Assembly: GCF_015207655.1 (NCBI RefSeq)
Contig: NZ_JADEWN010000016.1
Coordinates: 1 to 64,000, forward strand
Direction of reading: 5' to 3'
DNA length: 64,000 bases
Origin: Gloeocapsopsis crepidinum LEGE 06123
GTDB taxonomy: Bacteria > Cyanobacteriota > Cyanobacteriia > Cyanobacteriales > Chroococcidiopsidaceae
Shown piece by piece: positions 5,461-64,000 of the stretch. A program made the position numbers and the translations under genes. The notes under the pieces were generated by a model. That model had not been told where the DNA came from. It made no database searches and saw nothing but the letters and a program-made list of their open reading frames with translations. Every line of letters begins with the position of its first letter. The first letter of the stretch is position 1.

Positions 5461-5745
5461 GAATCTCTCCTCCTTGATTTCTAGTATGCAACGTTTCTTT
5501 ACAAATTGCAAATAAAATTTACCAATCAAACTATTAGGCAATGTTAAACAGACAAACAAAGCTTGCAATCTAGCACAAGGGAACTTATGAACTGGAAAAT
5601 ATTGGCTCTTTATTGATTAGCAAAATGAATCAATCTCCAATTTCTTTTCTCTTTCAGTCTCCCAGTCTCATTTGTAGCAACTTGCAAGCAAAACAGTATG
5701 AGATGATAGCGTGGATGTAAGGCTTTGATATAGGAGAAGGTTGAT

Positions 5746-6690
5746 ATAGATACGTCTTGGATCAAGCAGAAAGCCTTAGAGTTAGGATTTCATCGAGTCG
5801 GCATTGCCTCTGTTGACGATGACGCAACAGAGAGTCAACGTTTACAAGCATGGCTAGCACTTGGGTATCAAGCAGATATGGCATGGATGGCAAACCCTAA
5901 GCGACAAAATATCCAATTAGTTATGCCAGACGTGCGATCGCTAATTTGTGTTGCATTAAACTACTACACTCCACACCAGCGCCCTCTAGATCCTAAATAT
6001 GCCAAGCTATCCCGTTACGGCTGGGGTAGGGATTATCATAAAGTTTTACACAAAAAGCTAAAGTTGCTGAGTCATTGGTTAGAAGCACAAGTACAAGGAA
6101 TTCAAGTACGATACTATGCCGATACAGGTCCAGTACAAGATAAAGTCTGGGCACAGAAAGCAGGGATTGGTTGGATTGCCAAGAATGGCAATGTGATTAC
6201 ACGCGAATACGGTTCTTGGGTGTTTCTGGGCGAAATCTTGACCAACTTAAACTTAACTCCAGATCGCCCTCACACAGAACATTGCGGCAACTGCACCCGC
6301 TGTATTGATGCTTGTCCGACAGGTGCAATTACACAGCCGTTTGTTGTAGATGCAAATCGTTGTATCGCTTATCATACAATTGAGAATCGGAGTGAAAAAT
6401 TACCTGAGGCAGTAGCATCGCAACTCAACGGTTGGGTTGCAGGTTGTGATATCTGCCAAGACGTTTGCCCCTGGAATCAGCGTTTTGCTAAAGAAACAGA
6501 TGTAGCAGAATTTCAGCCTTATCCCTGGAATATTGCCCCTACATTAGCAGAACTTGCTGAGATTTCTGATACCGAGTGGAACAAGCAATTTCCAGCTTCA
6601 GCACTACGGCGTATTAAACCAGAAATGTTACGGCGAAACGCTAAAGCAAATCTGCAGGGCACAGCGAGAATGTCCACAAGCCAACAATAA
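5746..6690 (+). CDS. queG: Epoxyqueuosine reductase QueG; apparent non-ATG/GTG/TTG start
   Basis: 'EHCGNCTRCIDACPTGAI' and 'CDICQDVCPWNQRF' 4Fe-4S motifs. Homologous N-terminus (DTSWIKQKALELGFHRVGIASVDD) extends upstream of the tracked ATG at 5878 to an ATA at 5746 preceded by AGGAG. Confidence 0.92.
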   Translation: MDTSWIKQKALELGFHRVGIASVDDDATESQRLQAWLALGYQADMAWMANPKRQNIQLVMPDVRSLICVALNYYTPHQRPLDPKYAKLSRYGWGRDYHKVLHKKLKLLSHWLEAQVQGIQVRYYADTGPVQDKVWAQKAGIGWIAKNGNVITREYGSWVFLGEILTNLNLTPDRPHTEHCGNCTRCIDACPTGAITQPFVVDANRCIAYHTIENRSEKLPEAVASQLNGWVAGCDICQDVCPWNQRFAKETDVAEFQPYPWNIAPTLAELAEISDTEWNKQFPASALRRIKPEMLRRNAKANLQGTARMSTSQQ

Positions 6691-7395
6691 ATGCGCCCTA
6701 CAATGACAGCAAAAGTGATTATTTTTGATTTTGATGGTACATTAGCCAACACGATTGACGTTATTGTTGATATTACAAATCGTTTGGCATTGGAGTTTGG
6801 CTATAAACAAACAACTCAAGTCGAACTTGAACAACTAAAAAAATTGAGTTCCAGAGAAATTGTCAAGCACTCAGGAATATCAATTTTAAAGCTACCTTTT
6901 CTGATTAGAAAAGTTAGAGCAGAACTTAATAAGGAAATTAAGAACATTAGACCAATCTGTGAAATTACAGACATCTTGAGCGAGTTAAGTTCTATGGGAC
7001 ATCGATTGGGAATTATTACGTCTAATTCAAAAGAGAATATTGTAGAGTTTCTCGAAAAAAACGATTGGCAACACTTATTTGATTTTATTTACTCAGAAAC
7101 AACTCTTTTCGGTAAGAGCAAAGTAATTAATAATCTTATTAAACAGGAAGACCTTAACCGCGAACATATTGTTTATATAGGCGACGAGACAAGAGATATT
7201 GAAGCAGCGAGAAAGAGTAACATTAAGGCGATCGCCGTGGCTTGGGGATTTAATTCTCCAGATGTTTTAGCACAACAAAACCCAGATTTTTTAGTGCATC
7301 AACCACAAGAATTATTATCAGCAGTCATAGCCTTAAATTCTAGCGAGATTCAGTTAAATTCTGATTTGAGTAATCAAGGCACATTGAAGATATAG
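6691..7395 (+). CDS. HAD-family hydrolase (phosphoglycolate-phosphatase-like)
   Basis: 'VIIFDFDGTLANT', 'LGIITSNS', 'GKSKVINNL', 'IVYIGDETRDIEAARKSNIKAIAVAWGF' HAD motifs. Start could be 6703. Confidence 0.9.
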   Translation: MRPTMTAKVIIFDFDGTLANTIDVIVDITNRLALEFGYKQTTQVELEQLKKLSSREIVKHSGISILKLPFLIRKVRAELNKEIKNIRPICEITDILSELSSMGHRLGIITSNSKENIVEFLEKNDWQHLFDFIYSETTLFGKSKVINNLIKQEDLNREHIVYIGDETRDIEAARKSNIKAIAVAWGFNSPDVLAQQNPDFLVHQPQELLSAVIALNSSEIQLNSDLSNQGTLKI

Positions 7396-63195: not shown

Positions 63196-64000
63196 GTGCA
63201 GATCCGTCAACTCATTCCTTTCTTTGACAAATCTGTGGCTGGATGGGTCAACGAAGCCCGTCTATTGCGCTGGCTAACTTTACTGTGGTTATTCATGGGG
63301 TTAGTCATTCTGTTTTCTGCGTCCTATCCAGTCGCTGATATAAAGTATGGAGATGGGCTGTATTTCCTCAAGCGCCAACTAATAGGGGCAGCTATTGGTT
63401 TGGTAGCATTTAACTTTCTTGTCCATTCACCTTTACGTTCAGTTTTGAATATCGCGCATTGGGGTGTATTAGTTCTTTTAGGATTAATTTTTATGACACT
63501 TATTCCAGGCGTGGGAGTAGAGATTGAGGGGGCTAGACGTTGGTTATCTGTTATGGGGATTTTGATTCAACCTTCTGAGTTAATCAAGCCGTTTCTAATC
63601 TTACAAAGTGCCCGTGTTTTTGGGCAATGGCATAGAATTCGCTGGAATGCCCGCTTATTTTGGCTAATAGTTTTTGCGCTGATGTTGGCAGGAATTCTCC
63701 GCCAGCCAAATTTAAGTACAACAGCGCTTTGTGGAATGGCACTTTGGTTAGTAGCACTTGCAGCAGGTTTACCTTATTTTCAGTTAATAGGAACCGCTTT
63801 ACTCGGTATATTAGTAGCTGTAACAAGCATTAGCTTAAATCCTTATCAACTTGTGCGAGTCATTTCCTTTCGCAATCCTTGGATAGATCCGGCAAAGAGT
63901 GGCTATCAGTTGGTTCAAAGTCTGCTTGCAGTTGGTTCTGGTGGAACTTGGGGTGCTGGATTTGGACTGTCGCAACAAAAATTGTTTTATTTGCCAATTC
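63196..64000 (+). CDS. ftsW: FtsW/RodA-family cell-cycle protein, truncated at window edge
   Basis: Not in the ORF track because it runs off the window. GTG start; '...LVILFSASYPVADIKYGDGLYFLKRQL', 'GVEIEGARRWLSVMGILIQPSELIKPFLIL', 'SGGTWGAGFGLSQQKLFYLPI'. Confidence 0.9.
   Translation, partial: MQIRQLIPFFDKSVAGWVNEARLLRWLTLLWLFMGLVILFSASYPVADIKYGDGLYFLKRQLIGAAIGLVAFNFLVHSPLRSVLNIAHWGVLVLLGLIFMTLIPGVGVEIEGARRWLSVMGILIQPSELIKPFLILQSARVFGQWHRIRWNARLFWLIVFALMLAGILRQPNLSTTALCGMALWLVALAAGLPYFQLIGTALLGILVAVTSISLNPYQLVRVISFRNPWIDPAKSGYQLVQSLLAVGSGGTWGAGFGLSQQKLFYLPI

Follow-up and report, generated by a model that had tools for sequence, protein, structure and literature searches.

The queG gene of Gloeocapsopsis crepidinum LEGE 06123 raises the question of where translation begins in a frame that lacks a start codon at the expected place. 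In the 64,000 nucleotide stretch of DNA that we analyzed (the window), the queG frame follows an in-frame TAG at 5731-5733 and contains no ATG, GTG or TTG from there to 5877; the first in-frame ATG is at 5878, which is where the ORF caller puts the start of a 270-residue protein (Met5878). After the TAG, the frame translates to EKVDIDTSWIKQKALELGFHRVGIASVDDD... and thus encodes a normal QueG amino terminus. An AGGAG Shine-Dalgarno (SD) sequence at 5732-5736 on the forward strand overlaps the TAG, and is located three bases before a GTT at 5740 and nine bases before an ATA at 5746-5748. A reading made from the sequence alone (the sequence-only reading) had given the coordinates of the TAG, the AGGAG, the ATA and the ATG, the missing start codons, the upstream QueG amino terminus and the nine-nucleotide spacing correctly, and had offered three explanations: initiation at the non-canonical AUA, a mutation of ATG to ATA, or a sequencing error.

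The gene can be assigned to the epoxyqueuosine reductase (QueG) family by a profile match above the curated TIGR00276 cut-off together with the QueG_DUF1730 and paired 4Fe-4S domains. It spans 5746-6690 on the forward strand, or 314 codons if 5746 is the start. The match to TIGR00276 (327.7 bits, cut-off 200) covers model positions 1-302 of 337, the profile beginning at the residue encoded by codon 5761; the Pfam matches are PF08331 (QueG_DUF1730; 85.4 bits) and PF13484 (double 4Fe-4S; 78.5 bits), and the product resembles the solved QueG structures 5d08 and 5d6s. No second copy of queG was found in the genome, where the gene is single-copy, and no near relative was found in the plasmid and viral collections searched with it. 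Since QueA and Tgt are present in the genome and QueH, the unrelated alternative to QueG, was not found there, queuosine formation should depend on queG. A HAD-type hydrolase (phosphoglycolate phosphatase-like; 6691-7395), which is probably co-transcribed with queG, begins straight after the queG stop (TAA ATG), and its start adjoins queG in both other genomes of the genus as well.

The locus was compared across three genomes of the genus, namely the window genome (G000), G001 (QueG one residue different) and G002 (94%), and three genomes from another genus of the same family (G004, G014 and G010). The window genome reads TAG GAG AAG GTT GAT ATA GAT ACG TCT TGG ATC; G001 reads TAG GAG AAG GTT GAT ATC GAT ACG TCT TGG ATC; and G002 reads TGG GAG AAG ATT GAT ATC GAT ACG TCT TGG ATC. 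The three genomes of the other genus read AGG ATG AGT ATC GAT ACG (or ACA) ACT. Because the codons of the congeners and of the other genus can be aligned in this way, the ancestral queG ATG, as judged from the alignment, is the codon that corresponds to GTT at 5740-5742 (ATT in G002, ATG in G004, G014 and G010). By the same alignment, the ATA at 5746 is a synonymous form of isoleucine codon 3, which is ATA in the window genome only and ATC in G001, G002 and the other genus. The proposal of the sequence-only reading that an ATG had mutated to ATA at 5746 is therefore contradicted, as the ancestral ATG lies two codons upstream and 5746 was ancestrally ATC.

A canonical queG start is missing in all three genomes of the genus and is present in frame in all of about 105 queG loci from other cyanobacteria and from more remote bacteria, a start being counted when it lies no more than 40 codons before the conserved KQKALELG segment; one of these loci (L090) is masked in the start region and uninformative. 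Across the loci compared, the loss of the canonical start is thus specific to the genus and common to all three of its genomes examined. In G002, where TGG replaces the in-frame TAG at 5731, the reading frame continues upstream for some codons and reaches its stop without a canonical start. The queG gene of G002 also ends several codons earlier, a TAG replacing the CAG (Gln) of ...KANLQGTAR at the equivalent of 6655-6657 in the window.

Codons 5749-5877 (forward strand), which translation from Met5878 would omit, are under purifying selection within the genus. Between G000 and G002 these codons show 10 synonymous and 4 nonsynonymous changes, with a dN/dS of 0.09 vs 0.13 for the rest of the gene, and between the closest pair (G000 and G001) they show 3 synonymous changes and no nonsynonymous change. 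Under neutrality, with equal rates and equal mutability assumed at all sites, nonsynonymous changes would be this few with a probability of 0.01 for G000-G001 and 1.5e-4 for G000-G002. In view of this selection, the codons ahead of Met5878 are very probably translated, and, since GTT occupies the old start in both G000 and G001, they stayed under selection after the ATG was lost. As the genomes of the genus do not differ at codons 5749-5763, the selection test alone cannot tell where between 5746 and 5761 the start lies.

Such a pattern is exceptional in the window. When the window was scanned against the syntenic region of G002, queG was the only one of about 55 likely genes to display a long coding signature ahead of the first canonical start, extending over 48 codons with 11 synonymous to 5 nonsynonymous changes. 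The sole other long candidate flagged, an ORF of 80 codons at 63324-63566 on the reverse strand, has no canonical start near its beginning and is apparently conserved relative to G002; it was rejected as antisense to a frame running off the window end, which we labeled RodA/FtsW-like by eye from its translation. The infC gene, considered as a further case of a non-canonical start in the same genome, was likewise rejected, as it starts with GTG.

The upstream region contains a probable extended -10 promoter element, TGnTAGCGT (5704-5712, forward strand), which lies equally far from the queG start in six genomes (three of the genus and three of the other genus). A sigma-70 scan of the region in which a -35 element was required found no promoter. 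The conserved TGnTAGCGT pattern suggests that transcription probably starts near 5718-5720, and therefore that the mRNA would have a leader of less than 30 bases. Canonical start codons further upstream cannot serve queG: near 5698, 5711 and 5715 they either lie in another frame or run straight into a stop, and the TAG at 5731 separates an in-frame TTG at 5725 from the gene. No riboswitch or known RNA was found upstream of queG, the only match being a weak one to SCARNA7 far below threshold. A hairpin predicted over the start in G000 (z -1.65) and G001 (z -2.22) was set aside as not conserved, since neither G002 nor the other genus has it. With an assumed anti-SD tail, not read from the genome, the predicted energy of the GGAG duplex is -7.3 kcal/mol in each of the three genus genomes; in the other genus, which keeps the ATG, the best SD pairing on the same assumption is -5.0 to -6.3 kcal/mol and abuts the ATG.

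The best explanation of the queG start, and one that we hold with moderate confidence, is near-cognate initiation at the AUH codon 5746-5748 (forward strand). The locus has no in-frame canonical start where its homologues begin, its codons ahead of the first canonical start are constrained as coding sequence, and an AUH codon (ATA, ATC and ATC in G000, G001 and G002) is kept at a usable SD distance. No other codon is AUH in all three genomes and also lies at a plausible distance from the SD, and the difference between G000 and G001 at 5746 remains within AUH, so one codon serving all three species would be the most economical account. In the proposed sequence of events, the ancestor of the genus would have lost the queG ATG as ATG AGT ATC changed to ATT/GTT GAT ATC, and initiation would have shifted two codons downstream to the isoleucine codon AUC (AUA in the species of the window). 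There, the near-cognate AUH may accept fMet-tRNA, aided by the GGAG nine bases before it. Translation would yield M-DTSWIKQKALELGF..., a full-length QueG with an amino terminus two residues shorter than in the relatives that keep the ATG, and it would probably be made at a reduced rate. The non-canonical start at AUA proposed by the sequence-only reading thus remains the best-supported explanation, although the class has to be widened from AUA to AUH, since both congeners have AUC. Two observations weigh against 5746: the ATA/ATC is also the conserved isoleucine codon 3 of the relatives' protein, such that its conservation is not specific to initiation, and an SD spacing of nine bases is on the long side.

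Initiation at another non-canonical codon nearby, either the old start at 5740 (GUU; AUU in G002), ACG 5752 or AUC 5761, is unlikely. The position of 5740 is where QueG of the relatives starts, but GUU is just three bases from GGAG and is not known to serve as an initiation codon. All three genomes of the genus share ACG 5752 and AUC 5761, and the TIGR00276 profile begins at the residue of AUC 5761; yet the two codons are 15 and 24 bases from GGAG, which is too far. We consider it quite improbable that queG starts at Met5878 or is decaying, even though Met5878 is the ORF caller's choice, because the codons upstream of it are under selection as strong as that on the rest of the gene, the remainder of the frame is intact, and the genome has a single QueG and no QueH that we could find. 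The comparison with close relatives that the sequence-only reading had called for points the same way, as none of them begins QueG at the equivalent of Met5878 and their starts lie near 5740. The thermophilus QueG (PMC4646009) is a further argument against this start or decay.

A UUG in the +1 frame (5741-5743, forward strand), shared by the three genus genomes, has a good SD four bases upstream and could in principle initiate ribosomes that then slip -1 into the queG frame. This is very improbable: in the window genome the UUG frame meets a stop after just two codons (TTG ATA TAG) and is unusable for queG without a frameshift, and neither a slippery sequence nor a conserved stimulatory structure was seen, G002 lacking the hairpin that is predicted for the other two genomes. 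In both congeners the UUG frame stays open for 12 codons. The combination that marks programmed frameshifting (an overlapping upstream start, a slippery site and a stimulatory structure) was not found. Decidedly improbable as well is a more unusual pair of possibilities, that a weak near-cognate start has become fixed in the genus and serves as a control point, with queuosine tuned via initiation stringency (for example, the level of IF3), or that it uses an undescribed start-proximal frameshift from UUG 5741. A sequencing or assembly error concealing a canonical start, for which one base would be enough in a single genome, is hardly credible here. Three separate assemblies, from different species, all lack a canonical start and share the derived codons at 5740-5745, and an error in one assembly, as suggested for 5746 by the sequence-only reading, is therefore no explanation.

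Near-cognate initiation at 5746, if correct, bears on other genes as well. That the queG start has been kept through the divergence of three species, while the codons ahead of the first canonical start remained under selection, suggests that starts of this kind can persist stably in a housekeeping enzyme, and the case suggests that gene finders truncate such proteins (here by 44 residues). The genus and its relatives that keep the ATG would also provide a clean comparative test of compensatory SD strengthening. Weaker start codons are reported to accompany stronger Shine-Dalgarno sequences (PMC5622118). ATG starts are strongly conserved, and their replacement by near-cognate codons is very rare. 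In the comparative study just cited, which covered annotated starts only in 36 genome triplets, one of 61,358 ancestral AUG starts had changed to AUU and none was listed as having changed to AUA or AUC.

Near-cognate starts have been described in several other bacteria. In Listeria monocytogenes, changes of the rsbW start to ATA or ATT lower translation without abolishing it, in the order ATG > ATA > ATT (PMC13068326). As in queG, a non-canonical start replaces ATG; however, the rsbW changes are laboratory-selected mutations, whereas the queG state is genus-wide and fixed. The classical AUU starts of Escherichia coli infC and pcnB (cited in PMC9845219 and PMC13009471) resemble queG in having a near-cognate AUH where AUG is expected. 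In infC, the AUU is used for IF3 autoregulation, a kind of control known for infC rather than for queG. The closest parallels in codon and context are the natural AUA and AUU starts of Staphylococcus aureus, which have strong SDs and about 10-30% of AUG activity, and include infC, ccpN and citZ (AUA) and cvfC1 (AUU) (PMC13009471). Like queG, these genes combine an AUH codon with a strong SD, and in cvfC1 and ccpN the non-canonical start is conserved across relatives. Initiation profiling and reporters located the S. aureus starts, several of which belong to regulators, whereas queG encodes a tRNA-modification enzyme in a cyanobacterium and its start is proposed from sequence comparison; in addition, its codon is not fixed (AUA or AUC), unlike in the S. 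aureus cases. Thus, queG probably adds a genus-wide cyanobacterial example from tRNA modification to the rare, already known class of near-cognate starts.
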